From IMG/VR virus record IMGVR_UViG_3300042691_025866, positions 1 through 24,704 of that record: a stretch of 24,704 bases of DNA; one strand, written 5' to 3'. The notes under the pieces are model-generated. The model made no database searches. It was not told where the DNA came from and saw nothing but the letters and a program-made list of their open reading frames with translations. Made by a program: the position numbers and the translations under genes. Below, piece by piece: positions 1,170-18,611 of the stretch. Numbering within the stretch: the first letter of the stretch is position 1; each line of letters starts with the position of its first letter. The stretch is from a virus.

Positions 1170-1189
1170 GGTTTATTAGTAGCCCCCTA

Positions 1190-1609
1190 CTAAATATCTA
1201 CTCTGTCAATGGATGATGATAGCCATGAGATATTGTCTGAGTTATATTGCACTGTGTCAAAATCAATATCGTGAATTGCATTAGTTGCTTCTTCTTCATT
1301 ACGAGCATTGACTGTAACTGAGTACATAACTGTAACTTCAACTTCAAATTCCTTTGATAGTTCAAATCCACAGATGTCTGCAATTTCTTGACCTTCGGAT
1401 TCGTTTAAGGTACCGCAGTTAATTGCTTCCAAGGTCCACTCTTGCATTGCTTCAACGATACGATTCTTATCTGCAGATTCTGCATATGAACGCTGAGTTA
1501 CTTTCTGAATGTGCTCTTCTAATTGCTGAATGCGTTCTTTGTTTGCCACTAAAGTTGTTTCCAAAAACTCTCGTGTCATGTAGTGATTGTCTATTACTGG
1601 TTGGTCCAT
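1190..1609 (-). CDS. Hypothetical protein, 139 aa
   Basis: I chose the ATG at 1607-1609 (MDQPVIDNHYM), which has AAAGAGG about 8 nt upstream; the longer reading frame would extend into the promoter. Residues about 10-50 are likely helical (LEEHIQKVTQ). The C-terminal half (EVEVTVMYSVTVNARNEEEATNAI) resembles the short beta-strand plus helix domain seen in small phage and plasmid proteins of the DpnD/PcfM C-terminal type. That resemblance is by pattern only. No enzymatic motif is visible. It is a single-gene transcription unit with its own promoter. Confidence 0.8.
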   Translation of the reverse strand: MDQPVIDNHYMTREFLETTLVANKERIQQLEEHIQKVTQRSYAESADKNRIVEAMQEWTLEAINCGTLNESEGQEIADICGFELSKEFEVEVTVMYSVTVNARNEEEATNAIHDIDFDTVQYNSDNISWLSSSIDRVDI

Positions 1610-1643
1610 AAGGGCTACCTCTTTCTGTTTGTTGGTTAATTTA

Positions 1644-1673
1644 ATTATACTAGGTACCACTGACATTTGTCAA
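1644..1673 (-). promoter_or_regulatory. Composite promoter: sigma70-type -35 plus TGTCAG box
   Basis: On the minus strand a consensus TTGACA (1668-1673) lies 18 nt from TATAAT (1644-1649), and ATGTCAG is nested with the usual 11-nt spacing to the -10. It shows directly that the box sits between -35 and -10, so it need not replace a -35. Confidence 0.7.
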
Positions 1674-1788
1674 GGACCCTTGTGGGGAGCCTTTTGGGAT
1701 CATGCTCAGGATGTCTGCGTCTTTAGGTCGGCAGTAACCTTGCTCTATAGTATTTCTATTATCGCCCTAATCAGCCTGGCGAAAGTTA

Positions 1789-1810
1789 GGTGGGGCTTTT
1801 ACACCCCACC
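1789..1810 (-). terminator. Hairpin downstream of the 1820-2242 gene
   Basis: A perfect 7-bp stem, GGTGGGG/CCCCACC, with an 8-nt loop lies 10 nt past the stop codon on the minus strand. The following sequence is not a strong T-run, so it may act mainly as an mRNA 3' end. Confidence 0.55.
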
Positions 1811-1819
1811 CAATTTCAT

Positions 1820-2242
1820 TTAGAGGTAACGAGCAACCGCATTGTAAGTGCTTGTGCTAACTACTTCCTCATCTGTCATCTTTAGAATACGAATAGCGTT
1901 AGAGATTTCCTCTTTCTGCTCACGATAGGAATAGATAGAGATTGACTCAAAATCCTTTTCAGGCTCTTTAGGCAAATCCTTTTCTGATACTGTTAGGTCG
2001 AAGTCAATGTTTAACTGATTGTTCCAAGAACGATAGTTAGTGCGGAAGTTTTCTGCCTTCTTGATGTTAGCGATTGCATACTCACTAACTTCCTTTTTCC
2101 ACTTCTCATAAGCCTTCTGATGCTTTGCTTCGTTTGCTTCTTGTGATGCGTAGTCTGCTTCTAACTTTGCTAGTGCAGTTTCTAGTGCCTTGATTACTTT
2201 AGGTGTTGCTATCTTTACTGAGATTGCTTTCTGTCGTGCCAT
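1820..2242 (-). CDS. Hypothetical coiled-coil protein, 140 aa
   Basis: The sequence is rich in Lys, Glu and Ala, with long predicted helices over residues about 15-65 (ALETALAKLEADYAS, then KAYEKWKKEVSEYAI). A more polar segment follows, then a C-terminal helix. It is hydrophilic throughout, with no signal peptide or catalytic motif, and looks like a small cytosolic coiled-coil protein. The only upstream purine stretch is AAAAGAGAAA, so translation may be modest. It is monocistronic, with a box promoter at 2278-2300. I do not recognise the family. Confidence 0.8.
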   Translation of the reverse strand: MARQKAISVKIATPKVIKALETALAKLEADYASQEANEAKHQKAYEKWKKEVSEYAIANIKKAENFRTNYRSWNNQLNIDFDLTVSEKDLPKEPEKDFESISIYSYREQKEEISNAIRILKMTDEEVVSTSTYNAVARYL

Positions 2243-2277
2243 TGGGTTTTCTCTTTTCTTTTTGTGGGTTAGTTTCT

Positions 2278-2300
2278 ATTATAGCGTGGGGGTCTGACAT
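2278..2300 (-). promoter_or_regulatory. Box-type early promoter
   Basis: ATGTCAG, then CCCCC in the spacer, then TATAAT, with exactly 11 nt between ATGTCA and the -10, reading leftward into the 1820-2242 gene. It is one of the best matches to the family consensus. Confidence 0.7.
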
Positions 2301-2352
2301 TTTGGTGAGCCTTTTTGTATCTTGCTCAGGATAGTTCCTGCCCCTTATTTAG

Positions 2353-2373
2353 AGTCGCTGTACATTGGCGACT
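2353..2373 (-). terminator. Small hairpin after the 2385-2552 gene
   Basis: AGTCGC and GCGACT form a 6-bp stem with a 9-nt loop, 11 nt past the stop codon. There is no T-run. It is followed by a TGAGC/GCTCA repeat copy (2306-2328) and the next promoter. Confidence 0.4.
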
Positions 2374-2384
2374 TAGTAACTAGA

Positions 2385-2552
2385 TTACTTTGCTGTCCAA
2401 GTTGTCCAGCGAGTATTTCCATTTACATCTAACTTAACACGAACTGTGTCGCCTGTCTTGCTAGGTGCGATTTCCAAGATTGTTCCTGTAACCTTTGACT
2501 TCTGTGAAGTGTATAGGTCGCCTACCTTGTATGTTGCGGTTGCTACTGTCAT
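2385..2552 (-). CDS. Small beta-rich protein, 55 aa
   Basis: The start at 2550-2552 (MTVATATYKVGDLYTS) has a strong AAGGAG site; the longer frame upstream would run through the promoter. The pattern KVGDLYTSQKSKVTGTILEIAP followed by RVKLDVNGNTRWTT resembles the small SH3/KOW-like beta barrels common among phage early proteins. It is probably a nucleic-acid- or protein-binding module, but that is inference from pattern. Confidence 0.75.
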   Translation of the reverse strand: MTVATATYKVGDLYTSQKSKVTGTILEIAPSKTGDTVRVKLDVNGNTRWTTWTAK

Positions 2553-2593
2553 TTTGTTTCTCCTTTTGTTAGGTTGGTTTTGCTTATGTATTA

Positions 2594-2622
2594 AGTATAG
2601 CAAAAAATCTAAGAAATAACAA
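2594..2622 (-). promoter_or_regulatory. Sigma70-type promoter without the TGTCAG box
   Basis: TTGTTA (2617-2622), 17 nt, then TATACT (2594-2599) on the minus strand. The centre of the CRP-like palindrome at 2663-2678 is 71.5 bp from the -10 edge. Confidence 0.6.
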
Positions 2623-2662
2623 ATCCATTTCCAAATAATCTCAAAATGTGAGACATTATCTA

Positions 2663-2678
2663 TGTGATTTGCGTCACT
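2663..2678. promoter_or_regulatory. CRP/GlxR-like palindrome
   Basis: TGTGA-N6-TCACT, one mismatch from the CRP-type consensus, upstream of the 2594-2622 promoter. Confidence 0.55.
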
Positions 2679-2748
2679 AGGTTTTCTGCGTATAATACAA
2701 TTTTAGCAGAAAAATCTCAAAAATACAAATCCTGCCTCAAATTCTGGG

Positions 2749-2764
2749 GGTGATAAACATCACA
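2749..2764. promoter_or_regulatory. CRP/GlxR-like palindrome
   Basis: GGTGA-N6-TCACA, one mismatch from consensus. It is the second such box in the 2604-2840 spacer, too far from the promoter for a simple activation geometry. Confidence 0.5.
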
Positions 2765-2840
2765 TCGTAAACCCCTGCGTGTCTGTGCGTGTCTGACTTG
2801 ACAAATGACTGGTCAGCCGACGTCCCGTTTTTTCAGGGGA

Positions 2841-2909
2841 TCAGCCACTGCCTCCCAAAATAGAAATCATTACTATTAGTATCATTAGTACATATAGCCA
2901 TGCACTCAT
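2841..2909 (-). CDS. Possible 22-residue membrane microprotein
   Basis: An ATG begins directly after the stop codon of the GP88 gene and opens a frame of MSAWLYVLMILIVMISI, then GGSG and TGA. It could form a single transmembrane helix. The position, with zero spacing to the upstream gene, matches the tight coupling elsewhere in this arm, and another one-helix microprotein lies at 9683-9775. The ribosome-binding site is weak and the frame is short, so it may be chance. Confidence 0.4.
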   Translation of the reverse strand: MSAWLYVLMILIVMISILGGSG

Positions 2910-3650
2910 TTATTTTTTACTCGCAGAGAATATGATATCACTCTTAGAGTATACACAAAGTGAGCAAGAAACGCAAGCGCTACCAGCAGTTGAGATAAGT
3001 GGAATTTGTTTATTATTCTCAGGACACTTAGCAGCAGGTCGTCCAGTCATTTCTTTTACATCGGCTTGACCAATAGCAAAATTCTTAGCAAGGTATGCCA
3101 TGCGTACGCCACTATTAATTTTTAGGTCTACCGCTGTTTTTACATTCTCGCTATCTGCAGAGAAATATAATGATAGATTAGATACATCCTTAAGAATAAG
3201 AGCAGCAGACTTTACACGAGTGTAAACCCAGAATTGAATATCAGGGTGCTTATCAATAACTACTTTCCATGCATATGTATAAGTATCGTTAAAGAAATCT
3301 CCGTCCCAGTGGATACGGAATAGCATGGGTGCGTCTTTCTTTTTGCAGTCATTCTTGAAATCAATAATCATCTCATTAATCAAGCGGACCATGGTTTCTC
3401 CGTCTGCGTCTTTAAGAAGATCCCAATTGTGTAATAGGTTAGCCTTTACACCCTTGAAGAGTTTTTCAAGTTTTCCTGCGTAGCAAACACTTTCACAAAC
3501 ACTAGTGGCACCAGGGCACGAGAAAGCCTTTCCAGCAGGTAGACCAAAGGTATTTGCGATTGCGGCTTGTTTTCCATTTTTTGTGACAAGATTAGCCACC
3601 TTTCTATCGTTAGAGCGTTTTAGTTTAAGTGTATTAGTAGTCAAGGCCAA
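2910..3650 (-). CDS. GP88-family protein (mycobacteriophage gene 88 type), 246 aa
   Basis: It shows the features of the actinophage GP88 family: an N-terminal FGLPAGKAFSCPGATSVC segment, ESVCYAGK, a central RIHWDGDFFNDTYTYAW with QFWVYTRV, and a C-terminal Cys cluster (AKCPENN, ACVSCSLCVY). The cysteines at both ends suggest metal or cluster binding; the family function is unknown to me. The reading frame starts at TTG (3648-3650), inside the 3' end of the preceding gene, so translation is probably coupled. There is no ATG in frame nearby. It is the main product of its transcription unit. Confidence 0.82.
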   Translation of the reverse strand: MALTTNTLKLKRSNDRKVANLVTKNGKQAAIANTFGLPAGKAFSCPGATSVCESVCYAGKLEKLFKGVKANLLHNWDLLKDADGETMVRLINEMIIDFKNDCKKKDAPMLFRIHWDGDFFNDTYTYAWKVVIDKHPDIQFWVYTRVKSAALILKDVSNLSLYFSADSENVKTAVDLKINSGVRMAYLAKNFAIGQADVKEMTGRPAAKCPENNKQIPLISTAGSACVSCSLCVYSKSDIIFSASKK

Positions 3651-3810
3651 GACTCATTTCTAGAGCAATGTCTTCGTTATAAGTATATGACATTTCTTCG
3701 AGAAGGCAATGAGTGCACTTATCTTCATATGCGTCAACGGCATTTTCTTTACATGAAGGGCACACTGTTGCATAGTACTCATCAAGAATTTCATCATTTT
3801 CGTAGGTCAT
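3634..3810 (-). CDS. Small zinc-ribbon-like acidic protein, 58 aa
   Basis: ATG at 3808-3810 follows GGAGAATAGCCC. The protein has CPSC near residue 17 and CTHC near residue 32, a spacing typical of a small zinc ribbon, in a strongly acidic background (MTYENDEILDEYY). It overlaps the TTG start of the GP88 gene by 17 nt. The overlap and spacing suggest the two are translated together. Confidence 0.75.
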   Translation of the reverse strand: MTYENDEILDEYYATVCPSCKENAVDAYEDKCTHCLLEEMSYTYNEDIALEMSLGLDY

Positions 3811-3813
3811 GGG

Positions 3814-3960
3814 CTATTCTCCTTTTTGTTGATATTTTAATTGTATCAGTTCGGACTGACATTTCTTTCGATTGTAAGCCTTTTTAGAAGGTACGGCAGA
3901 GGCAGCGTTGCTACGGCGTAGTTCCATAAGCCTGCGTAGTTCCTCATCTGTTTTCTTCAT
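3814..3960 (-). CDS. Small basic protein, 48 aa, leaderless
   Basis: MKKTDEELRRLMELRRSNA, followed by KKAYNRKKCQ and a Lys/Gln-rich tail. The N-terminus is likely helical. The ATG lies exactly 6 nt after TAATAT of a promoter with TTGACA (3991-3996), so the transcript would be leaderless; this supports the start. The stop codon lies within the Shine-Dalgarno region of the next gene. A box promoter (3840-3862) is embedded in its 3' half. Function unknown. Confidence 0.6.
   Translation of the reverse strand: MKKTDEELRRLMELRRSNAASAVPSKKAYNRKKCQSELIQLKYQQKGE
3840..3862 (-). promoter_or_regulatory. Box-type promoter inside the 48-aa gene
   Basis: ATGTCAG, 11-nt spacing, TACAAT on the minus strand, about 30 nt upstream of the 3810 start. 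It sits within the coding region of the leaderless 48-aa gene. Confidence 0.6.
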
Positions 3961-3966
3961 ATAACA

Positions 3967-3996
3967 ATATTAACACACATCTACTAAAAATGTCAA
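3967..3996 (-). promoter_or_regulatory. Sigma70-type leaderless promoter
   Basis: TTGACA (3991-3996), 18 nt, TAATAT (3967-3972), then 6 nt to the ATG of the 48-aa gene. The CRP-like box at 4007-4022 is centred 42.5 bp from the -10 edge. Confidence 0.6.
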
Positions 3997-4006
3997 ATCT
4001 GAATCG

Positions 4007-4022
4007 TGTGATTAAAATCACA
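4007..4022. promoter_or_regulatory. CRP/GlxR-like palindrome, perfect
   Basis: TGTGA-N6-TCACA with all ten consensus positions matched, just upstream of the 3967-3996 promoter. Its right edge touches the T-run of the terminator at 4028-4053. Confidence 0.65.
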
Positions 4023-4027
4023 AAAAA

Positions 4028-4053
4028 TTTTCCCCGCCCAGGATCGGGGAAAA
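4028..4053 (-). terminator. Strong intrinsic terminator
   Basis: A perfect 9-bp stem (TTTTCCCCG/CGGGGAAAA) with an 8-nt loop, followed on the minus strand by a six-T run. It is the second hairpin behind the 4717-4186 unit, after the one at 4155-4178. The A-run on the other side could also make it work on the plus strand. Confidence 0.8.
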
Positions 4054-4108
4054 GAAAAATAGCCTTCTTAAAGATATTTTATATAGGTTACTGGTGAGTA
4101 GGGCATAG

Positions 4109-4128
4109 TTATCCACAGGTTATCCCCA
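4109..4128 (+). promoter_or_regulatory. Paired DnaA boxes
   Basis: TTATCCACA at 4109-4117 and TTATCCCCA at 4120-4128, with start points 11 bp apart. The same arrangement recurs at 4849-4868 and 8912-8931. Confidence 0.6.
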
Positions 4129-4154
4129 GACACACCCGAACGCGACGTCCAAAA

Positions 4155-4178
4155 TTTGCAGATTTTTAGATCTGCAAA
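4155..4178 (-). terminator. Intrinsic terminator after the 4186-4275 gene
   Basis: TTTGCAGAT/ATCTGCAAA, a 9-bp stem with a 6-nt loop, followed on the minus strand by TTTTGG and then the GACGTC element at 4144. It lies 7 nt past the stop codon. Confidence 0.75.
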
Positions 4179-4185
4179 ATTGGTT

Positions 4186-4275
4186 TTATTCTTTTTCGAT
4201 TTCTTCTAACAATTCCCAAAGTATTGGTTCTAATTCTTTAGAAACTAAATCTAATTTTTCTTGTAGTGTTTTCAT
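4186..4275 (-). CDS. Acidic helical microprotein, 29 aa
   Basis: The ATG overlaps the stop of the upstream gene as TAATG. The product (MKTLQEKLDLVSKELEP, then ILWELLEEIEKE) would form one amphipathic helix. It is the last gene of a four-gene chain that ends at the hairpin 4155-4178. The precise coupling supports it being real despite its length. Confidence 0.6.
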   Translation of the reverse strand: MKTLQEKLDLVSKELEPILWELLEEIEKE

Positions 4276-4469
4276 TACTGAACCAACCCTTCGAACCATT
4301 GAGAAAATCCACCTGTGAAAAATACTTCTTCACCTTTAGAATTAGTGAGTGTTGCGATTACATACTCAGTTTCATCATTAACCTCAAGAATCTCTTTTAC
4401 AAGATAATTTTGGTCATTGGAAATAAACAGTTTTCCAACAGTGATTTTATTTATTATTGATAGTGACAT
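4275..4469 (-). CDS. Hypothetical small beta-rich protein, 64 aa
   Basis: MSLSIINKITVGKLFISNDQ, then VKEILEVNDETEYVIAT and a GEEVFFTGGFSQWFEG segment. The alternating hydrophobic strands suggest a small beta barrel, as in other early proteins of this arm. The ATG overlaps the stop of the 48-aa upstream gene as TAATG, with AAAGAAAG upstream. Function unknown. Confidence 0.75.
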   Translation of the reverse strand: MSLSIINKITVGKLFISNDQNYLVKEILEVNDETEYVIATLTNSKGEEVFFTGGFSQWFEGLVQ

Positions 4470-4615
4470 TAGTTTTCTACTTTCTTTAGTTCATGATTAT
4501 TATTAAGGGGGCGATTGTTATTGGAGAACATGGCTTCAATAACCGCTTTATCTTTTATTGATTGAGCAATTCTTTTTTCTTGTTGCTCTTTTAGTATTCT
4601 GTTATAAGTATCCAT
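4469..4615 (-). CDS. Small hydrophilic helical protein, 48 aa
   Basis: MDTYNRILKEQQEKRIAQSI followed by KDKAVIEAMF, an Asn-rich stretch and a basic end. It is likely helical in its first 30 residues. The ATG follows AAAGAAAGG in the spacer after the 26-aa gene, and its stop overlaps the next start as TAATG. Function unknown. Confidence 0.65.
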   Translation of the reverse strand: MDTYNRILKEQQEKRIAQSIKDKAVIEAMFSNNNRPLNNNHELKKVEN

Positions 4616-4636
4616 TTATTCATTACCTTTCTTTTA

Positions 4637-4717
4637 TTAGCAATAGCAGTATTCGTTATCGCAATCGCATGAGCGTTGCTCAATACCATCAAAATCTTTT
4701 AATTCATTGTTAGTCAT
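4637..4717 (-). CDS. Cys-rich microprotein, 26 aa
   Basis: MTNNELKDFDGIEQRSCDCD, then NEYCYC. Four cysteines in the last ten residues (CDC...CYC) suggest metal binding. It is the first gene of its unit, with AGAAAGGGTC upstream and the box promoter at 4768-4790. Short, but in the right place for a promoter-proximal gene. Confidence 0.6.
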   Translation of the reverse strand: MTNNELKDFDGIEQRSCDCDNEYCYC

Positions 4718-4767
4718 TTTTGACCCTTTCTAGTTCAGAAACCTTTTCTGACTTTCTTTATACTGTA

Positions 4768-4790
4768 AGTCTAGCATGGGGGACTGACAA
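4768..4790 (-). promoter_or_regulatory. Box-type early promoter
   Basis: TTGTCAG with CCCCC in an 11-nt spacer, then TAGACT, followed by the conserved start region TTACAGTATAAAGAAA. It drives the 4717-4186 unit. The CRP-like box at 4829-4844 is centred 63.5 bp from the -10 edge. Confidence 0.7.
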
Positions 4791-4828
4791 ATAGCCAGCG
4801 TGTCGCATGGTCTGACTAGTCAAAGAAT

Positions 4829-4844
4829 TGTGATAAGCGTCACA
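4829..4844. promoter_or_regulatory. CRP/GlxR-like palindrome, perfect
   Basis: TGTGA-TAAGCG-TCACA, directly next to the DnaA box pair and upstream of the 4768-4790 promoter. Confidence 0.65.
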
Positions 4845-4848
4845 CAGG

Positions 4849-4868
4849 TTATCCACAGGTTATCCACA
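4849..4868 (+). promoter_or_regulatory. Two perfect DnaA boxes, 11 bp apart
   Basis: TTATCCACA at 4849-4857 and again at 4860-4868, each followed by GG. They lie between the CRP-like palindrome and the GACGTC element at 4872. Confidence 0.7.
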
Positions 4869-4881
4869 GGCGACGTCGATT

Positions 4882-4907
4882 TTTTTATGCGGGGAAGTGC
4901 ATAAAAA
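4882..4907 (-). terminator. Intrinsic terminator after the 6066-4908 operon
   Basis: TTTTTATGC/GCATAAAAA, a perfect 9-bp stem with an 8-nt loop, abutting the stop codon of the last gene. The 3' arm runs into further A residues and then the GACGTC element. Confidence 0.75.
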
Positions 4908-5150
4908 TTATTCCTCTTGCTCTATAAAAACATAAAGAGGAATTGTATCAGTGTAACTATACTGCGTTACTTCTTTTTCTCCAAATTCATTTTCTGTTTG
5001 TACATCATAGTTATCGCCAGTGGAATCACTTTCAATAAAAAGAATTTCAACAATGTCATCTCCAATTTTTATTAAATCGCCTAGCATTAGTTGATCTGGC
5101 TGCAAGTTATCAGCGTGTATTAAATCCATAGCAATCATTGTATCAGACAT
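4908..5150 (-). CDS. Acidic small protein, 80 aa
   Basis: The start at 5148-5150 (MSDTMIAMDLIHADNLQPDQ) has GAGGAAT about 4 nt upstream, at the end of the preceding gene, and is preferred over an upstream ATG lying within that gene. The core LMLGDLIKIGDDIVEILFIE plus strands (NYDVQTENEFG) resembles a KOW/SH3-like barrel. It ends a five-gene operon and runs straight into a terminator. Function unknown. Confidence 0.78.
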   Translation of the reverse strand: MSDTMIAMDLIHADNLQPDQLMLGDLIKIGDDIVEILFIESDSTGDNYDVQTENEFGEKEVTQYSYTDTIPLYVFIEQEE

Positions 5151-5151
5151 T

Positions 5152-5439
5152 TTATTCCTCATCTTCAAATTCATTTACTGGGTCAATAAACCAAGATAGG
5201 TGGTGTTGGTCTACAATTGCGTGTGCTGGTGCATGACTCATGCCCTTATAGAATACGCCTTCGGGCATAGCAATAAATCGGTCATAGTCCTCATCATAGT
5301 ATGCATCAATTGCTTCGATGCAAGGTTGCACCATGCTTAGCGGTACTGGAGGATAGTGATTACCCTGTAAGTGATACGCTAATTGCGTTTCTAAATCTAA
5401 TACTGAGTCTGCTAATCCAATTGCTGTAACACTTCCCAT
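5152..5439 (-). CDS. Conserved phage early protein, 95 aa
   Basis: LAYHLQGNHYPPVPLSMVQP, then CIEAIDAYYDEDYD and HAIVDQHHLSWFIDP. The NHYPPVP segment is one I associate with a family of small actinophage proteins of unknown function; this is recall, not a search. The strong AGGAGG site lies at the end of the preceding gene. The last residues (EFEDEE) overlie the ribosome-binding site of the next gene. Confidence 0.82.
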   Translation of the reverse strand: MGSVTAIGLADSVLDLETQLAYHLQGNHYPPVPLSMVQPCIEAIDAYYDEDYDRFIAMPEGVFYKGMSHAPAHAIVDQHHLSWFIDPVNEFEDEE

Positions 5440-5658
5440 TTACTTACCTCCTACAATTCCACTGCGATACAAAATCTTTGTATGCATTTTGCCACTAGGC
5501 TCTGATAAATTTATTGTACGGAATTCATTAGCAAATCCGTGGTCAATAAATCTCTGATAAACTTCAACGGCAGATAAAGCATCTGAGTAGCGACCAATCC
5601 AATTAGGCTTAGCCTCTCCGTCATTAGTAGTAGTTACTGAGTATAGGTATTCGTTCAT
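5440..5658 (-). CDS. Hypothetical protein, 72 aa
   Basis: MNEYLYSVTTTNDGEAKPNW, then IGRYSDALSAVEVYQRFID. The layout of a strand, a helix with EVYQRF and then strands suggests a small alpha/beta domain similar to modification-state or inhibitor microproteins, but no family is recognised. AAGGAG precedes the ATG, and the ATG overlaps the stop of the upstream gene as TAATG. Its own stop codon abuts the next start. Confidence 0.8.
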   Translation of the reverse strand: MNEYLYSVTTTNDGEAKPNWIGRYSDALSAVEVYQRFIDHGFANEFRTINLSEPSGKMHTKILYRSGIVGGK

Positions 5659-5849
5659 TAGTTATTCTCCTTATAGTTTTCGTTCATGATACTTTCAGCA
5701 TACCATGCACAGTATTCATTTTCAAGCGACACGCCTTTATTGCAATCGCAAAATTCTGAGTCATACTCACCCGATGAGTTTCCCCAAAAAATTACGCCTT
5801 CATCATGGCAATCAACACAATCAACCAAAAATTCGATTAAGTTTCCCAT
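5658..5849 (-). CDS. Cys-rich acidic protein, 63 aa
   Basis: It contains CVDC near residue 11 and FCDC near residue 33 with a further Cys in EYCAWY, a likely zinc-binding arrangement. The sequence is otherwise acidic and polar. TTGGAG precedes the ATG. It is the second gene of the 6066-4908 operon and overlaps the next start by one base. Confidence 0.78.
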   Translation of the reverse strand: MGNLIEFLVDCVDCHDEGVIFWGNSSGEYDSEFCDCNKGVSLENEYCAWYAESIMNENYKENN

Positions 5850-5853
5850 TTAT

Positions 5854-6066
5854 TTATTCTCCAATTCTTACTGATAGAATACGATAAGTATCCTTTAGAT
5901 TAAATACTGAAGGATAGTGTGGGCGAACCTGAACACGATAACTTTCTAAACCTGCGCCATAAAAGACATCAGACTTTTCTGCATCTATAATTTCGCCTGT
6001 TAAAGTGCGTGACTTATAAGTTTTTCCTACAAGTAGGTTTTCTATTGTATAGACATTTGCTGACAT
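5854..6066 (-). CDS. Hypothetical small beta protein, 70 aa
   Basis: MSANVYTIENLLVGKTYKSR, then TLTGEIIDAEKSDVFYG and YRVQVRPHYPSVFNL. Strand-rich, perhaps SH3-like. AAAGAGG precedes the ATG. It is the first gene of the operon, with tandem promoters upstream at 6152-6180 and 6099-6121. Confidence 0.8.
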   Translation of the reverse strand: MSANVYTIENLLVGKTYKSRTLTGEIIDAEKSDVFYGAGLESYRVQVRPHYPSVFNLKDTYRILSVRIGE

Positions 6067-6098
6067 TTGCCAACCTCTTTCTTTTTGTTATTAAATCT

Positions 6099-6121
6099 AT
6101 CCTACCATTAGGGTCTGACAA
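6099..6121 (-). promoter_or_regulatory. Box-type early promoter (downstream of a tandem pair)
   Basis: TTGTCAG, 11-nt spacing, TAGGAT. It follows a sigma70-type promoter 50 bp upstream. Confidence 0.65.
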
Positions 6122-6151
6122 ATCTTTGTTATTTATTTTTCTTACTATGTA

Positions 6152-6180
6152 AGTTTAGCCTATTAACCATAAATTATCAA
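6152..6180 (-). promoter_or_regulatory. Sigma70-type promoter (upstream of a tandem pair)
   Basis: TTGATA (6175-6180), 17 nt, TAAACT (6152-6157). The downstream sequence TTACATAGTAAGAAAAAT is shared with the rightward promoter at 9285-9313. The CRP-like box at 6222-6237 is centred 72.5 bp from the -10 edge. Confidence 0.65.
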
Positions 6181-6221
6181 GTTACTAGCGAGTAAATCCA
6201 AATAGTGAGACGCTCAGCCTA

Positions 6222-6237
6222 TGTGATAAATCTCACA
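6222..6237. promoter_or_regulatory. CRP/GlxR-like palindrome, perfect
   Basis: TGTGA-TAAATC-TCACA between the tandem promoters of the 6066-4908 operon and the GACGTC element at 6260. Confidence 0.65.
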
Positions 6238-6273
6238 GCGTGGCGACACGCCCGAACGCGACGTCCCGTTTTT

Positions 6274-6363
6274 CTACTCTTTTACAAATAAATAAAATCC
6301 GCTTGCTAAACAGATCATTGAAAACCAAAAGAGTGCATTTCCATTTACAAAAAAGTCAATCAT
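6274..6363 (-). CDS. Single-helix membrane microprotein, 29 aa
   Basis: MIDFFVNGNALFWFSMICLA followed by SGFYLFVKE. One hydrophobic helix with a short charged tail. The ATG follows AAAGAGGAAAACTAA at the end of the previous gene, with zero spacing after its stop. It is the last gene of the 7113-6274 operon. Confidence 0.62.
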   Translation of the reverse strand: MIDFFVNGNALFWFSMICLASGFYLFVKE

Positions 6364-6525
6364 TTAGTTTTCCTCTTTTTCTTTTAGTATTCCAAGAATT
6401 AACTCTAATTGTTTTGCAGTTAGCAATCCTTGAGCGCAACCCCAAGAAAATGCTAAATCCATTTCACCATAGTGTTTTTTTGCAAGAGTGTTAATTTCTT
6501 GCGCTATCTCAAAGTTAGTTTTCAT
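6364..6525 (-). CDS. Hypothetical helical protein, 53 aa
   Basis: MKTNFEIAQEINTLAKKHYG, then EMDLAFSWGCAQGLLTAKQLELILGILKEK split between two helices. AAAGGAGAAATAG precedes the ATG. The start lies inside the 3' end of the upstream gene (11-nt overlap). Function unknown. Confidence 0.7.
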   Translation of the reverse strand: MKTNFEIAQEINTLAKKHYGEMDLAFSWGCAQGLLTAKQLELILGILKEKEEN

Positions 6526-6667
6526 CTATTTCTCCTTTCATTTCTCTATAGTCAATAACATGAAAGTCTAATTGTCTCTCAAGTGGCATAGCCTTTAGCC
6601 ATGATAGTGCAGACTCAAAATCATCTGCTTCGACATCAACGAATAACTCAAAATTAAAAATAGCCAT
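6515..6667 (-). CDS. Hypothetical small alpha/beta protein, 50 aa
   Basis: MAIFNFELFVDVEADDFESA, then LSWLKAMPLERQLDFHVIDY. A strand, a helix and a strand, with acidic loops. The pattern resembles small DpnD-like or ferredoxin-fold microproteins. GGAGAATAACTAA precedes the ATG. Function unknown. Confidence 0.68.
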   Translation of the reverse strand: MAIFNFELFVDVEADDFESALSWLKAMPLERQLDFHVIDYREMKGEIDEN

Positions 6668-6671
6668 TTAG

Positions 6672-6836
6672 TTATTCTCCTTTCTTGTATAGAAAATCCC
6701 AAGCCTTACGGCATAGAATAATTGACTTGCAGTTATCGCAACAGATAACACCATGAGGGTTTAGGTCAAGGTCATAGATGTCTATGCTAGTGCTAACCGC
6801 ACCGCATACTGATTTGATTGGTACAAATGTGCTCAT
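6672..6836 (-). CDS. Cys-rich zinc-binding-like protein, 54 aa
   Basis: A single Cys near residue 11 (KSVCGAV), then ICCDNCKSIILC near residues 31-42. The CxxC-type spacing suggests zinc binding. GGAGAATACAA precedes the ATG, which overlaps the upstream stop as ATGA. Function unknown. Confidence 0.7.
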   Translation of the reverse strand: MSTFVPIKSVCGAVSTSIDIYDLDLNPHGVICCDNCKSIILCRKAWDFLYKKGE

Positions 6837-6943
6837 TTGTATTCTCCTTTTTTTATTAGTTCATCTAGCATTTTTGCTAGTGGGTCTATCTGCTCGTCTG
6901 CAAGATAGTTATTTAATTCTAATTGTTTTACGAAGTCTATCAT
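6833..6943 (-). CDS. Helical microprotein, 36 aa
   Basis: MIDFVKQLELNNYLADEQID, then PLAKMLDELIKKGEYK. Two short amphipathic helices. ATGA overlaps at both ends link it to its neighbours. The coupling at both ends is the main support. Confidence 0.6.
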   Translation of the reverse strand: MIDFVKQLELNNYLADEQIDPLAKMLDELIKKGEYK

Positions 6944-7113
6944 TGAGATACCTTCCAATCTGACCACATAGGTAGTCGTTCTGGGTCGGTATCGTTATAC
7001 CAACGCTCAATGTTCTGCTCACAATTTTGGCAGAAGGTAAATTGCTCATCACCGATTTCGGAGATAGCAGATTTCATAGGGTTATGCTCAACGCATTTTG
7101 TTAATGTAGTCAT
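6940..7113 (-). CDS. Zinc-ribbon-like protein, 57 aa
   Basis: MTTLTKCVEHNPM gives a Cys and a His, followed by FCQNC near residue 28 and an acidic/aromatic tail (ERWYNDTDPE). The CxxC with a second Cys/His pair suggests a small zinc site. A strong AAAGGTGG site lies 9 nt upstream; the same site precedes the first rightward gene at 9477. It is the first gene of a six-gene operon. Confidence 0.72.
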   Translation of the reverse strand: MTTLTKCVEHNPMKSAISEIGDEQFTFCQNCEQNIERWYNDTDPERLPMWSDWKVSQ

Positions 7114-7168
7114 TTTAGACCACCTTTCTTTAAGGGATTTCTTTACCCTTATTTTTCTTTATACTGTA

Positions 7169-7191
7169 AGTGTAGCATGGGGGTCTGACAT
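7169..7191 (-). promoter_or_regulatory. Box-type early promoter
   Basis: ATGTCAG with CCCCC in an 11-nt spacer, then TACACT and the conserved start region TTACAGTATAAAGAAA. Drives the 7113-6274 operon. Confidence 0.7.
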
Positions 7192-7229
7192 CTACTGACC
7201 AGTAATGCCACAAATCGGACATTTTGAAA

Positions 7230-7245
7230 TGTGATACAGGTCATG
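7230..7245. promoter_or_regulatory. CRP/GlxR-like palindrome, degenerate right arm
   Basis: TGTGA-N6-TCATG. Its centre is 63.5 bp from the -10 edge at 7174, the same as at 4829. Confidence 0.5.
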
Positions 7246-7252
7246 TGGATAA
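7244..7252 (-). promoter_or_regulatory. Single DnaA box, reverse orientation
   Basis: TGTGGATAA, the complement of TTATCCACA, overlapping the right arm of the CRP-like box by two bases. Confidence 0.5.
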
Positions 7253-7270
7253 CTTACGCTCAATTTTGAG

Positions 7271-7286
7271 TGTGATCTGCGTCATG
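7271..7286. promoter_or_regulatory. CRP/GlxR-like palindrome, degenerate right arm
   Basis: TGTGA-TCTGCG-TCATG, a second box 41 bp from the one at 7230. Confidence 0.45.
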
Positions 7287-7362
7287 TGGACGACACGCCC
7301 GACAGCGACGTCCCAAAATTTTGAGTGTGGAGCAGTTTTAAATCATGCTCAGGATTTTTTTA

Positions 7363-7554
7363 TTATGAATTACTATTTGCTAAATCATTTACACCACACG
7401 CAATTTTAAAAGTCATTGGGTTAAAGCGTGGGTTATCTGATAAAAACATGTCTGAAAAATCATAGATTAAATCTTCAAAAGTAAATTGGTCAATTAACTC
7501 TGAATAACTTTTTAGAATTTCAGCAGTTGCTACATAGTCTTTACGAGTCATCAT
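7363..7554 (-). CDS. Conserved small phage protein, 63 aa
   Basis: MMTRKDYVATAEILKSYSEL, then FSDMFLSDNPRFNPMTF and KIACG. The segment with FSDMF and DNPRFN plus a C-terminal AC is one I have seen in many small phage proteins of unknown function. Two ATGs are possible (7554 or 7551); the first overlaps the upstream stop as TAATG. It is last in a three-gene unit and is followed by the inverted repeat at 7330-7350. Confidence 0.82.
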   Translation of the reverse strand: MMTRKDYVATAEILKSYSELIDQFTFEDLIYDFSDMFLSDNPRFNPMTFKIACGVNDLANSNS

Positions 7555-7760
7555 TATTCGACCACCTTTAGAATTGCATAAGTGCCTCGCTCATTTATTT
7601 CATCAAGGACAGGACCGATTGCAGGCACAAGAAAATCTTTTAGCATTCCCTCAAGCATGGCAACCAAATCTGCATGAGGGATAGCGAGGGCCTGTTGTGC
7701 TACTGGGTGAGTTTCATCGAACTCTGTTACGAACTTTAGTGAGTGTTCTACTTTAGTCAT
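7554..7760 (-). CDS. Hypothetical protein, 68 aa
   Basis: MTKVEHSLKFVTEFDETHPV, then PHADLVAMLEGMLKDFLVPA and GPVLDEINERG. Mostly helical and acidic. AGGAAATAAAATAA precedes the ATG. Overlap with the next start (TAATG) suggests coupled synthesis. Function unknown. Confidence 0.75.
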   Translation of the reverse strand: MTKVEHSLKFVTEFDETHPVAQQALAIPHADLVAMLEGMLKDFLVPAIGPVLDEINERGTYAILKVVE

Positions 7761-7779
7761 TTATTTTATTTCCTATTCT

Positions 7780-7977
7780 TTAGTTTGATTTTGAGGGTGT
7801 AAGAGTGCCACGAAGTGTGCCACTAATTCCGAGAGTGTCGCAAGCAACCTTTACTGCAACGCCAACAGGTAACTGTGTTGGATAAGTTGAGATGAATTGA
7901 GCAACCGCACCTTTTGAGGCAAGGTTGATTTTTTTGGTAGAACCATTAAAGGTTTCTAGTGTTATAGTGTAAGTCAT
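7780..7977 (-). CDS. Hypothetical beta-rich protein, 65 aa
   Basis: MTYTITLETFNGSTKKINLA, then SKGAVAQFISTYPTQLPVGV. Alternating strand pattern, no Cys, no signal sequence. AAAGGAAG precedes the ATG. It is the first gene of the unit and has tandem promoters at 8132-8160 and 8011-8033. Function unknown. Confidence 0.75.
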   Translation of the reverse strand: MTYTITLETFNGSTKKINLASKGAVAQFISTYPTQLPVGVAVKVACDTLGISGTLRGTLTPSKSN

Positions 7978-8010
7978 TTATAGACTTCCTTTCGTTAAGT
8001 TGATAAGACT

Positions 8011-8033
8011 ATCTTATCATGGGGGGCTGACAT
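8011..8033 (-). promoter_or_regulatory. Box-type early promoter (downstream of a tandem pair)
   Basis: ATGTCAG, C-rich 11-nt spacer, TAAGAT. The CRP-like box at 8061-8076 is centred 52.5 bp from the -10 edge. Confidence 0.68.
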
Positions 8034-8060
8034 TTTTGCCACTTATTTGCTAAGGCTCAC

Positions 8061-8076
8061 TGTGATACTGGTCACA
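8061..8076. promoter_or_regulatory. CRP/GlxR-like palindrome, perfect, between two iteron-like repeats
   Basis: TGTGA-TACTGG-TCACA. On the minus strand it is flanked on both sides by GAGCCT-AGCAAATAA-type sequences (about 8042-8060 and 8077-8095), the same unit repeated at 9181-9404. Confidence 0.65.
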
Positions 8077-8131
8077 TTTATTTGCTTAGGCTCATTGGCT
8101 AAACTGTCATTATTTAATTGTTATAGTAGTA

Positions 8132-8160
8132 ATACTAGCAGATAAAAGTCAAAAAGTCAA
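8132..8160 (-). promoter_or_regulatory. Sigma70-type promoter (upstream of a tandem pair)
   Basis: TTGACT (8155-8160), 17 nt, TAGTAT (8132-8137). A second TTGACT lies at 8147-8152. The CRP-like box at 8192-8207 is centred 62.5 bp from the -10 edge. Confidence 0.6.
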
Positions 8161-8191
8161 GTTTAGACACGCACAAAACGGACATTTTTGA

Positions 8192-8207
8192 TGTGATTTA
8201 CATCATA
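8192..8207. promoter_or_regulatory. CRP/GlxR-like palindrome, degenerate right arm
   Basis: TGTGA-TTTACA-TCATA, abutting the LexA-type box at 8208. Confidence 0.5.
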
Positions 8208-8221
8208 CGAACATCTGTTCG
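8208..8221. promoter_or_regulatory. Cheo-type LexA (SOS) box
   Basis: CGAAC-ATCT-GTTCG, a perfect match to the CGAAC-N4-GTTCG palindrome bound by LexA in actinobacteria and Bacillus. It lies 48 bp upstream of the -35 at 8155-8160, farther than a classic overlapping operator. It is the only one I found. Confidence 0.5.
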
Positions 8222-8237
8222 AAACGACGTCCCAAAA

Positions 8238-8262
8238 ATCGCAGATTTTTTATTTCTGCGAT
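8238..8262 (-). terminator. Intrinsic terminator after the 8779-8271 unit
   Basis: ATCGCAGA/TCTGCGAT, an 8-bp stem with a 9-nt loop, followed on the minus strand by TTTTGGGACGTCG. It has the same layout as the terminator at 4155-4178. Confidence 0.75.
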
Positions 8263-8270
8263 CTTGGTTT

Positions 8271-8456
8271 TTATTCGTTTTCTAAATAAGATTCAAAATC
8301 ATTTAAGAAAACACGATAAGCAATTGGGTCGCATTCTTTTAGAATGTCGGCAGGATAAAATAAAATTCCTGCAATCATTACTGGGTCATGCGAATCATTT
8401 AGGTATTCGTTAAATTGCTCTTGCAATTCTTGTTCTAATTCATAGTCAGTTTTCAT
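8271..8456 (-). CDS. Conserved small phage protein, 61 aa
   Basis: MKTDYELEQELQEQFNEYLN, then MIAGILFYPADILKECDPIA and YRVFLNDF. The segment AGILFYPADILKECDPIAYR is a pattern recurrent in small phage proteins of unknown function. AAAGAAAG lies upstream. It is the last gene before the terminator at 8238-8262. Confidence 0.82.
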   Translation of the reverse strand: MKTDYELEQELQEQFNEYLNDSHDPVMIAGILFYPADILKECDPIAYRVFLNDFESYLENE

Positions 8457-8548
8457 TTATTTGTTTCTTTCTTTAGTAAGGATAGGGCAATTGCAAGGCT
8501 TTCCTTGCGTTGCGCTTCTACAAGCGCCTTGTATTCATCTAGTGTCAT
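8453..8548 (-). CDS. Helical microprotein, 31 aa
   Basis: MTLDEYKALVEAQRKESLAI followed by ALSLLKKETNK, one long amphipathic helix. GAAAGGTCG precedes the ATG. The stop overlaps the next start as ATGA. Function unknown. Confidence 0.6.
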   Translation of the reverse strand: MTLDEYKALVEAQRKESLAIALSLLKKETNK

Positions 8549-8596
8549 TTATTTAACGACCTTTCTTTTTAGTTAGTTTTGTTTTTCTCTAATTAC

Positions 8597-8779
8597 TTAG
8601 AGAGAGCGACCACATTGTGAGTGGTAGCAAGTACGACCATAAGAGTCGCCATTTGTTGTACAAATGTCATGAATTGTAGCGGGGGCGAGTATTACCTGAC
8701 CGCATTGGCATAAGTTCATCATGCCTTTAGGGTAGTCGCTAAGTGTAGCGAACCCTTGTCCAAATAGTGAGTTAGTCAT
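8597..8779 (-). CDS. Zinc-ribbon-like protein, 60 aa
   Basis: CQCG near residue 24, then a Cys near residue 40 and CYHSQCG near residue 51. The CxC and CxxxxC arrangement with His suggests a zinc site. A strong AAAGGAG lies upstream. First gene of the leftmost-reading unit next to the divergence region. Confidence 0.78.
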   Translation of the reverse strand: MTNSLFGQGFATLSDYPKGMMNLCQCGQVILAPATIHDICTTNGDSYGRTCYHSQCGRSL

Positions 8780-8831
8780 TGACTATCTCCTTTCTTGTTA
8801 AAGACCTTCTTTAACTTTCTTTATACTAGTA

Positions 8832-8854
8832 AGTATAACAGGGGGGTCTGACAT
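8832..8854 (-). promoter_or_regulatory. Box-type early promoter at the divergence region
   Basis: ATGTCAG with CCCCCC in the 11-nt spacer, then TATACT. Drives the 8779-8271 unit. The CRP-like box at 8892-8907 is centred 62.5 bp from the -10 edge. Confidence 0.7.
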
Positions 8855-8891
8855 TTTGGGGTGTTTTTCGGGCGTGTCGGAAAAGTATTTT

Positions 8892-8907
8892 TGTGATAAG
8901 CATCACA
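8892..8907. promoter_or_regulatory. CRP/GlxR-like palindrome, perfect
   Basis: TGTGA-TAAGCA-TCACA, next to the DnaA box pair, the same order as at 4829-4868. Confidence 0.65.
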
Positions 8908-8911
8908 TTAG

Positions 8912-8931
8912 TTATACACAGGTTATCCACA
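8912..8931 (+). promoter_or_regulatory. Two DnaA boxes, 11 bp apart
   Basis: TTATACACA (8912-8920) and TTATCCACA (8923-8931), followed by the GGGGACGTCCCC palindrome at 8932-8943. Confidence 0.65.
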
Positions 8932-8943
8932 GGGGACGTCCCC

Positions 8944-8988
8944 ATATACCCCCTATATATACCCCCCCTATATACACCCCCCTATATG
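8944..8988 (+). repeat. TATATACCCCC-like short tandem repeats
   Basis: Four imperfect units of alternating TA runs and C runs. On the complementary strand they read GGGGG-TATATA. Alternating TA tracts melt easily and the G runs could form unusual structures. Confidence 0.6.
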
Positions 8989-8998
8989 GGCGTATACG

Positions 8999-9070
8999 CC
9001 TAAGACTGGTCATGTGCATATGCACCTAAGATCAGTCATGTACCTATGCACCCAAGACTGGTCATTTAGA
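8999..9070 (+). repeat. 26-bp tandem repeat, 2.8 copies
   Basis: Units start at 8999, 9025 and 9051, each beginning CCTAAGA or CCCAAGA and containing GGTCATG or CAGTCATG. The core GACTGGTCA also appears at other unit boundaries, for example near 1103 and 2807. Confidence 0.7.
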
Positions 9071-9077
9071 CGTCCCG

Positions 9078-9093
9078 TGTGATGCATATCACA
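9078..9093. promoter_or_regulatory. CRP/GlxR-like palindrome, perfect
   Basis: TGTGA-TGCATA-TCACA. Its centre is 52.5 bp from the -10 edge of the rightward promoter at 9115-9143. Confidence 0.65.
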
Positions 9094-9114
9094 TGCGACA
9101 CGCCGTGTTATAAC

Positions 9115-9143
9115 TTGACTTTTAGTGGTAGATGTGTTATTAT
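9115..9143 (+). promoter_or_regulatory. Rightward early promoter 1
   Basis: TTGACT (9115-9120), 17 nt, TATTAT (9138-9143). A match to the sigma70/SigA consensus. The spacer is related to that of the leaderless promoter at 3967-3996 (both contain GTAGATGTGT or AGTAGATGTGT). Confidence 0.7.
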
Positions 9144-9228
9144 ACTAGTATAAGAAAAATTAAATAGAGATAAAAGGTTATGAGCCTAGCAAATAAGATA
9201 ACGAATTGTTATATGAGCCTAGCGAATA

Positions 9229-9244
9229 AGTGACCTAAATCACA
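9229..9244. promoter_or_regulatory. CRP/GlxR-like palindrome
   Basis: AGTGA-CCTAAA-TCACA, one mismatch. Its centre is 71.5 bp from the -10 edge of the promoter at 9285-9313. Confidence 0.5.
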
Positions 9245-9284
9245 TAGTACACGCTCCACATAGTGAGACTACTGGTGAGTATAC

Positions 9285-9313
9285 TAGACAGTATGACATT
9301 TATCTGTTACACT
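9285..9313 (+). promoter_or_regulatory. Rightward early promoter 2
   Basis: TAGACA (9285-9290), 17 nt, TACACT (9308-9313), then TTACATAGTAAG. Likely drives the small rightward genes 9477-10393. Confidence 0.65.
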
Positions 9314-9476
9314 TACATAGTAAGAAAAATTAAATAAAGATAAATCCTAGTGAGCCTTTGAGCCTACCAAATAAACCTAGCAATAGGGTGAGCGTAGCAA
9401 ATAAAAAGCAAATAACCTAGGCAAGGAAAAAGGGTATCAAATAGATACCATAGAAAAAAAGAAAGGTGGTCATTAA

Positions 9477-17015: not shown

Positions 17016-18611
17016 ATGGCTGATAACTATATTGATGAAACGGAAACTGGCACTGGGTTATACTCAACCAGGGTTCCTGGCTATGAAGATGCAGCAGATA
17101 TTCAGGAGGCTTTAAGACTTTATCATTATGGATCACTAAGTATCCCAACTGTTGATTCACTTGGAACGGCAAATGGAATAAGTCCAAAATCTATAGCAGG
17201 GCACCTAAAAACCTTATCAAATACAGACATAGCCAATGCATTATTGGCAGCAAATGCTCTTGCACAAGAGATAACAGATAGAACAACTGCAGATACAGGT
17301 CTTCAAACACAGATAAATAACCTTTCAGCAACCATAGGGTTGCAAACCACTTTAACTACAAAAACTTCTAACTTTACCCTGGCTCTTTTGGATGCTGGAA
17401 AAACAATTTTACTTGATACTGCATCACCAATGACATTGACAGTCCCTACAAATTCATCAGTTGAAATACCTGTTGGATATCAGTATTTTGTTATAGAAGC
17501 AGGATCAGGAAGAACAACTTTTACACCAGCATCAGGTGTAACAATTAATAGCAAAAATTCACAAATGTATATTGATAATCAATATGGTAGAGCAACGCTT
17601 TTAAAGGTTGGAACTGATTCATGGATTGCCTATGGAGATATTTCTGAAAATGCTGTCCCAGTGACACCACCAGTGACACCACCAGTGACACCACCAGTGA
17701 CACCGCCAGTGACACCACCAGTGACACCACCAGTTACTCCACCGCCACCACCAGTGACACCACCAGTTACTCCACCAGTAGTAGTGACACCACCTGTAAC
17801 TCCACCAGTAGTAGTGACACCACCTGTAACACCACCAGTAACAACAGGAACAGCCTATCTCTCATACTGCTTTAATGGAACTCCTACACAAGAATCATTC
17901 CCCGTTAATTCTGAAAATGTAGTTGTACAAGATATTAACCAAGCAGTTGCTGCTTACACTTCACTTCTTCAAGGTTTAAATCCTCCAGCAACAAGCATTT
18001 CTGTTTCAATAAGTTCAATGCCAGCAGCACCAACTAACTGTCCAGCAGCACCAGTGACACCACCAGTTACACCCCCAGTAGTTACTCCACCAGTAACACC
18101 CCCAGTAGTTACTCCACCAGTAACGCCACCAACAGGTGGATTCTTTGCTTCATTCTGTTCTAATGGAATTGCTATGTCAGATGGAGGACCTCAGTACTCA
18201 TCTGCAGGAGCCATTCAAGCATGGGTAAATGGCAATTATCCTAATGTAAACAATCTTACTACTCAAGAAGGGTCCGCACCAGCATTACCAAATTGTACAC
18301 CAGCAGTTACTCCACCAGTTACTCCGCCTGTAACTCCACCAGTTACTCCACCACCACCAGTGACTCCACCAGTTACTCCACCACCACCAGTGACACCACC
18401 AGTTACTCCACCAGTAGTAGTGACACCACCTGTAACTCCACCTGTAACTCCGCCTGTAACTCCACCTGTAACTCCACCTGTAACTCCACCTGTAACTCCA
18501 CCTGTAACTCCACCTGTAACTCCACCAGTTACACCACCAGCAGGCGGTTGTAATCCAGACACAGTAGGATGCCAAGGAGACTTTGGTTCTTGCGGAGGGT
18601 GCTTTGCATAA
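17016..18611 (+). CDS. Long tail fibre/spike with TPPV repeats and Cys domains, 531 aa
   Basis: Residues 1-210 have a small helix region (EALRLYHYGSLSIPTVDSLG, then coiled-coil-like NALAQEITDRTT) and a beta domain with LLDAGKTILLDTASPM. Three TPPV/VTPP repeat blocks follow (about 214-278, 345-374, 429-508). Between them are two related domains, each with a pair of Cys (SYCFNGTPTQ...NCP and SFCSNGIAMS...NCTP). The tail has GGCNPDTVGCQGDFGSCGGC. Repeated Thr-Pro-Pro-Val would be an extended, stiff linker and a good substrate for proline hydroxylation or O-glycosylation. The repeat DNA could vary in length by slippage. Confidence 0.82.
   Translation: MADNYIDETETGTGLYSTRVPGYEDAADIQEALRLYHYGSLSIPTVDSLGTANGISPKSIAGHLKTLSNTDIANALLAANALAQEITDRTTADTGLQTQINNLSATIGLQTTLTTKTSNFTLALLDAGKTILLDTASPMTLTVPTNSSVEIPVGYQYFVIEAGSGRTTFTPASGVTINSKNSQMYIDNQYGRATLLKVGTDSWIAYGDISENAVPVTPPVTPPVTPPVTPPVTPPVTPPVTPPPPPVTPPVTPPVVVTPPVTPPVVVTPPVTPPVTTGTAYLSYCFNGTPTQESFPVNSENVVVQDINQAVAAYTSLLQGLNPPATSISVSISSMPAAPTNCPAAPVTPPVTPPVVTPPVTPPVVTPPVTPPTGGFFASFCSNGIAMSDGGPQYSSAGAIQAWVNGNYPNVNNLTTQEGSAPALPNCTPAVTPPVTPPVTPPVTPPPPVTPPVTPPPPVTPPVTPPVVVTPPVTPPVTPPVTPPVTPPVTPPVTPPVTPPVTPPVTPPAGGCNPDTVGCQGDFGSCGGCFA
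17656..18540 (+). repeat. TPPV-coding repeat DNA in three blocks
   Basis: Blocks at about 17656-17848, 18049-18136 and 18301-18540 consist of repeated 12-bp units such as CCACCAGTGACA, CCACCAGTTACT or CCACCTGTAACT. Block 3 has a long run of almost identical CCACCTGTAACT units (about 18424-18530). Synonymous mixing in blocks 1-2 suggests older repeats; the uniform run suggests recent expansion. Confidence 0.75.

Follow-up and report, generated by a model that had tools for sequence, protein, structure and literature searches.

Why would a phage crowd so many short repeats into the stretch from which its two arms diverge? The window analysed here, a linear IMG/VR virus record of 24,704 bases that carries DUF932 and GP88 genes, holds at this point DnaA-like boxes, a palindrome, tandem repeats and four copies of TGAGCCTAGCAAATAA, and all the features that a first-pass annotation had listed are present, at or near the positions it gave them (Table 1). 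That annotation took the complex for a replication origin or a master switch, and the TGAGCCTAGCAAATAA copies for DNA iterons. The repeats are real: TGAGCCTAGCAAATAA, found on the (+) strand at 9181, 9214, 9359 and 9389, is expected 0.35 times, and none of 100 dinucleotide shuffles reaches four copies; TTATNCACA occurs seven times in the whole window against 1.91 expected (0/100 dinucleotide shuffles are as high), and GACGTCC nine times against 0.48. The DNA-iteron meaning is what fails, because changes in one copy are compensated in another; at the level of sequence, this establishes the supposed iterons as paired strands of a modular structured RNA and not as DNA repeats.

Table 1. Features at and around the divergence point of the window. 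Bit scores and E-values are those of model R1; the E-values are not independent, as close relatives of these elements are included in the model.
Feature	Position	Strand	Details or basis
RecA-NDp/PafBC-like promoter	8011..8032	(-)	just after the leftward element
Element, leftward unit	8031..8106	(-)	two modules head to head; 63.9 bits, E 1.7e-14
Promoter-like TTGACT-17-TAGTAT, leftward	8132..8160	(-)	promoter scan
RecA-NDp/PafBC-like promoter	8832..8853	(-)	at the divergence point
CRP/GlxR-like site TGTGATAAGCATCACA	8892..8907		motif scan
DnaA-like boxes	8912..8931	(+)	TTATACACA 8912-8920, TTATCCACA 8923-8931
Palindrome GGGGACGTCCCC	8932-8943		direct reading of the sequence
TATATACCCCC-type (ATATACCCCC) repeats	8944-8987		3.1 copies
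26-bp repeat	8986-9065		3 copies; array of dyads, operator-like DNA
CRP/GlxR-like site TGTGATGCATATCACA	9078..9093		upstream of the rightward promoter; motif scan
Dyad ACACGCCGTGT	9098..9108		just upstream of the -35
Promoter-like TTGACT-17-TATTAT, rightward	9115..9143	(+)	promoter scan
Element 1, rightward unit	9169..9241	(+)	two modules head to head; 65.4 bits, E 7e-15
Promoter-like TAGACA-17-TACACT, second rightward	9285..9313	(+)	between elements 1 and 2
Element 2, rightward unit	9347..9416	(+)	nested three-module FFR; 66.5 bits, E 3.5e-15

Control sites at the divergence point

How much of the complex belongs to replication? The case for a phage origin made up of DNA iterons and DnaA boxes, a reading we regard as very improbable, lies in the repeats, the DnaA-like boxes and the AT-rich DNA at the divergence point. 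Yet members of the iteron/DnaA class would be expected to have copies with the same letters and DnaA boxes kept in relatives; here the letters of the copies change in compensating ways, and of 17 relatives 8 have DnaA boxes in the 680 bp before the orthologous gene and 9 have none (identical pairs are included among the 17; two more of the 19 relatives found, L134 and L143, have no upstream DNA and were left out). The boxes are also repeated at another promoter: the 50-bp module of CRP site, DnaA boxes and GACGTC at 8891-8940 has a second copy, 88% identical, at 4828-4877, near a further leftward promoter-like site, and therefore looks like a promoter module. On these comparisons a replication origin in this region is not supported, and we read the CRP, DnaA, 26-bp and GACGTC repeats as transcriptional control sites.

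What can be kept of the master switch is a phage control region with two divergent arms, in which promoter-like sites lie together with CRP-like boxes, an operator-like array and dyads. CRP-like sites number six in the window against about 0.02 expected, and a TGTGA-N6-TCACA site is present in 16 of the 17 relatives. The second and third copies of the 26-bp repeat are 75% and 79% identical to the first; two or more copies are found in 11/17 relatives, where the array of GACTGGTCAT-type dyads has up to five copies (L129, L131, L136, L140-L142), and the array is probably a set of operators for some regulator. The string TTGACTTTT...TATTAT, or one similar to it, lies upstream in relatives too and matches the first rightward promoter-like site; the second has 9 of 12 matches, in a promoter scan whose overall yield does not exceed that of shuffles. 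Sites of the form TGTC[AG]G-N10-TAnnnT, which we take to be the RecA-NDp/PafBC-type promoter consensus, occur 13 times in the window against 1.33 expected, ten of them leftward within 996-8853; their number suggests that many small phage genes use a host promoter of the DNA-damage type, putatively that of PafBC.

A modular structured RNA

If the TGAGCCTAGCAAATAA copies are not iterons, how do they fit together? They form same-strand pairs around a variable hairpin, with compensating changes that are beyond detection by eye. The layout is P1 - UGAGC - helix - CAAAUAA - P2 hairpin - UGAGC - helix - CAAAUAA - P1: the UGAGC of each copy faces the CAAAUAA of its partner across a central helix of 4-5 bp, and the second internal loop is the first, inverted. 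An A.G or G.A mismatch usually borders the UGAGC/CAAAUAA loop (43/51 outer and 38/39 inner A-type cases), a rule that the B-type and unresolved cases (16 outer, 15 inner) do not obey. The GAG facing UAA could form part of a loop like the UAA/GAN internal-loop motif; this is a likeness of letters, and the element's loop is larger than that motif and is kept as a unit.

In the window, the copies at 9181 and 9214 belong to the first rightward element, and those at 9359 and 9389 to the second. The first-pass annotation had also placed the unit around a CRP-like box, and it is indeed there, on the minus strand at 8061-8076 with one extra base per copy; the box is the UGUGA/UCACA P2 hairpin of the leftward element. 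Covariation is visible within the window itself: the central helix is CUAC/GUAG in the second (+) element and CUAAG/CUUAG, with a compensatory inserted pair, in the (-) element. Folded one at a time, the elements have unremarkable energies: z is -1.60, +0.63 and -2.21 for those of the window, and two consensus-like stretches have -0.10 and -0.26. For the third window element (stretch 9335-9430), 144 of the 200 shuffles are as stable or more so.

The pairing is backed by tests that could have failed. A1, an alignment that MAFFT made blind to structure from 43 elements (picked by hand out of 58 diverse ones), has 88.2% of its cells paired against 62.6% when shuffled, and 114 double changes against 33, neither value being reached by any of 500 shuffles; shifting the partners by 1-3 columns abolishes the signal. 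In a second alignment, which unlike the blind A1 was fitted to the structure, the central helix is paired in every lettered cell (124 model matches, 88 loci, 119 distinct rows). Because the core letters were the search pattern, which makes their invariance partly selected, the pairing tests were run with the helix letters free. In counts that include related sequences with a common history, and so are not that many independent events, (i) forcing position a9 off G with its partner free gave 96 matches in viral contigs (89 loci), all of them Watson-Crick, the 72 distinct contexts comprising 64 C-G and 8 U-A pairs; (ii) an extra base in each strand, both free, gave Watson-Crick pairs in 113/113 among the matches listed (113 loci examined, of at least 120 stretches), with U-A 45, A-U 33, G-C 3 and C-G 3 in the 84 distinct cases; (iii) forcing a8 off A gave five matches, some close copies of one another, with CUCG facing CGAG in all five; and (iv) forcing a6 off C gave two, both compensated. 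Forcing a7 off U gave no matches in the viral contig scan.

Could a CRP site be the cause of the hairpin pair? P2 has 54 distinct sequences among 117 distinct elements, only 33 of which (14 of the hairpins) have a CRP-consensus P2; the non-CRP hairpins have unrelated letters, and one near-CRP hairpin off the consensus still pairs via G-U. The explanation was rejected, and within the CRP-consensus subfamily P2 could still serve both as CRP site and as hairpin. An asymmetry of G-U over A-C in P1 was likewise dropped as a strand argument: it stands at 11:1 when the register is set on standard pairs including G-U and falls to 9:3 with Watson-Crick pairs only. Because it shrinks with the choice of register, the claim to the sense strand rests on orientation to promoters. 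A leader peptide, in which the A or G that usually stands before the copies would make ATG- or GTG-like starts, is rejected as well: the spacing hits all residues mod 3 (42, 25 and 24 of 91), and the preceding purine faces another purine, in the A-type proportions given above for the mismatch.

There is little left to recommend repressor sites on the DNA, operators or stoperators aligned with the direction of transcription, and we give them next to no credence. They would explain why asymmetric repeats lie on the sense strand in both arms, and GP88 relatives are present in many mycobacteriophages, whose stoperators are reported to be asymmetric, numerous genome-wide and able to stop elongation (PMC9283540, PMC6550527). 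But stoperators are DNA sites for a repressor, many single sites over a genome, whereas the elements are RNA-pairable sets at operon heads, 1-4 per record, with letters that covary; the tests with free helix letters contradict DNA sites of this kind, barring a ligand that is itself a DNA hairpin.

Distribution, carriers and placement

How common is the element, and where does it occur? An exact scan of viral contigs for TGAGCCTAGCAAATAA returned at least 120 stretches, and the loci then in hand held 171 same-strand pairs (119 distinct) and 7 lone near-exact copies; the pairs have a short variable inverted repeat between the copies and another around them. Over 332 loci (312 from pattern scans, 19 from a protein search, and the window), a descriptor called 332 FR (head-to-head) pairs, 84 FFR (nested) triples, 42 single F, 18 single R, 14 FF and 9 other arrangements. 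At least one element was called in 327 of these loci, which is no prevalence, as they were mostly fetched with the element's own pattern. Among the remaining five, L044 and L074 have a single lone copy each in the same context, probably by chance; L061 has a variant letter outside the descriptor; and L089 and L113 are truncated where their loci stop. In 1.18 Mb, the same kind of descriptor found 297 modules, compared with one in a Markov-resampled control. Whole records of 62-116 kb, picked for carrying the element, have one or two R1 matches each (20/20), and three records from variant scans have 2, 2 and 4 elements, the last (G025) with four on one strand. Model R2, for single modules and built from 11 sequences, has lower specificity, with many weak matches among those up to E 1.

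Because WhiB (PF02467) is found in 15 of 20 element-carrying records, the carriers probably infect actinobacteria. The portal protein of one carrier is 46% identical to a Streptomyces phage portal, and the window's DUF932 protein 50% identical to a Streptomyces phage counterpart; three of these Streptomyces phages belong to Samistivirus, Stanwilliamsviridae. From the low G+C we guess at a freshwater host of the Nanopelagicales. Models R1 and R2, at E up to 1, have no match in these three Streptomyces phages and one mycobacteriophage, and blastn of one 65-nt element, a weak search for so short a query, found nothing in phage records. In genome_contigs (84,980 species), a strict search for two copies returned only L144 and L145, both false; these are tandem DNA repeats scoring 17-21 bits with R1 and were dropped as bacterial copies. 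It is by this strict two-copy pattern that the element is confined to viral contigs. It is common for elements to be located no more than a few kb from where a contig stops (G003, G010, G011, G015, G016, G017), and the DUF932 gene stands at two places per record in the listed Streptomyces relatives; for these reasons, the element region may be part of long terminal repeats at which assemblies break. The window also encodes, at 17016-18611 (+), a 531-aa protein with long PVTPP repeats, perhaps a virion fibre.

Is the element tied to a gene or to a promoter? A promoter-like match is present in 81 of 91 non-redundant upstream regions, themselves drawn from 124 distinct ones, compared with 1.1 in mononucleotide shuffles: 36 are of the TTGAC type, 46 of the TGTC[AG]G-N10-TAnnnT type, and one region has both. 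By eye, five of the ten regions left without a call have a weaker promoter and five have none. The element usually lies 16-53 nt downstream of the promoter-like -10, and the distance from -10 to UGAGC is 33.2 +/- 6.9 nt versus 79.9 +/- 73.1 nt from the element to the first start codon (n = 78). The latter distance is widely spread, with a median of 65 nt, and a further promoter-like site intervenes in 33/91 regions. By these measures, the element is shown to be placed relative to promoter-like sites, as the sequences define them, and not relative to the start codon or a particular gene. First genes, assigned with a crude ORF rule to 168 of the 173 elements, encode 134 distinct proteins in 29 families, most of which are of unknown function.

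A probable leader in search of its reader

What would a folded RNA do in such a place? With high confidence, we take the element to be a cis-acting structured RNA leader near the 5' end of transcripts from early promoters, acting on those same transcripts; the confidence applies to an RNA leader acting in cis and leaves the put-like mode discussed below outside. That the genes served are early we infer from gene content and from the analogy with HK022. The element likely controls how early messages are made or kept. Under this model, the folded RNA would sit near the 5' end of early transcripts, with elements on both divergent arms; its conserved loops would be read as RNA by a component shared among these infections, be it RNA polymerase, an RNA-binding protein of the host or a protein of the phage; and their recognition would alter what becomes of the transcripts started at those promoters. 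The question that the element raises is which cellular component recognises the UGAGC/CAAAUAA loop.

The closest precedent is HK022 put. There, putL and putR lie downstream of PL and PR, and put is an antitermination RNA of about 70 nt with two stem-loops (PMC9378689). Like put, the element is a structured RNA of ~70 nt downstream of early promoters, with copies on both arms: in the window and in all 80 both-strand loci (52/52 distinct sets), the copies diverge and stand downstream of both divergent promoters, presumed to be early. Unlike put, with its two separate stem-loops, the element is one stacked hairpin column with loops in 1-3 modules; no sequence relation is seen, the hosts differ, and antitermination by the element in the manner of put, without further factors and by binding RNA polymerase, is putative. 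We tentatively propose that the element is a functional analogue of putL and putR, in which the folded leader would make the transcribing RNA polymerase resist pauses and terminators in early operons. Against this mode, leftward transcription offers few terminators to act on: the leftward half of the window has few strong intrinsic ones, with one clear case at 4053-4028. Against one element per early arm, some records have several on one strand. A broader claim, that a new class of cis-acting RNA, with one to three copies of one 12-nt internal-loop module and related to put neither in sequence nor in fold, programs RNA polymerase or a common host factor for put-like antitermination on both arms of a large group of uncultured actinophages, is a possibility we advance with more doubt than belief.

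If the leader does act on its own transcript, need polymerase be the reader? A simpler role would be to stabilise the 5' end, the folded leader, perhaps protein-bound, shielding messages from decay initiated there. This fits an element that starts close to the inferred transcript start, at a distance that is kept, and that serves ahead of many different genes; but a plain stem would suffice for it, and loops with conserved letters in as many as three modules suggest that recognition is specific, so that we judge it unlikely. Modules that occur one to three times, in either orientation, do resemble repeated protein sites, and each loop might bind one molecule of a phage or host regulator of translation or mRNA decay. 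Such an RNA operator would be expected to overlap the ribosome site, which the distance to the start codon, judged by itself, and the promoters in between speak against, and no candidate protein was identified; its chances seem slimmer still.

A conserved 12-nt loop in 5' leaders is also what a riboswitch would present, with each loop a small-molecule aptamer, and a structured, aptamer-like leader is what is found. Tandem aptamers are a known riboswitch design, and the element shares with tandem riboswitches and modular aptamers the repeated conserved modules in a 5' leader. As far as T5 runs (between element and start codon in 3 of 91 regions) and, for a sequestered ribosome site, distance can tell, no expression platform is seen. 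The element differs from them in having no link to a gene or a single pathway, given the 29 first-gene families, and in being absent from bacterial genomes by the strict pattern used above. A riboswitch is accordingly an improbable solution, and we favour the put-like leader over the 5'-end stabiliser, the protein operator and the riboswitch.

Has such an RNA been seen before? Rfam 15 gave five weak matches in the window when searched to E 10, none of them on an element; only tRNAs in 12 loci at gathering thresholds; and no match on an element in three loci searched to E 5. The element is likewise absent from the literature searched, mostly without subscription papers, a scope that does not establish absence from print. 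Because no Rfam match and no description came to light, we class the element as a new family within a known general kind of RNA, the cis-acting phage leader, with an unusual modular build; as a folded RNA heading early messages, it is apparently undescribed. It marks control regions in uncultured, probably actinobacterial phages and helps to annotate them, and should RNA polymerase prove to be its target, it would represent RNA-based antitermination of a type other than that of HK022.

The leaders hold other recurrent features. Between promoter and element, AUUAAAUA is found in 47 of the 91 upstream regions compared with 1.0 in shuffles (in the window, within 9144-9168), and it may belong to the element. 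A second hairpin, GGTATC-AAATA-GATACC, lies at 9433-9449, before the first rightward gene, and relatives have hairpins of different sequence at the same site.
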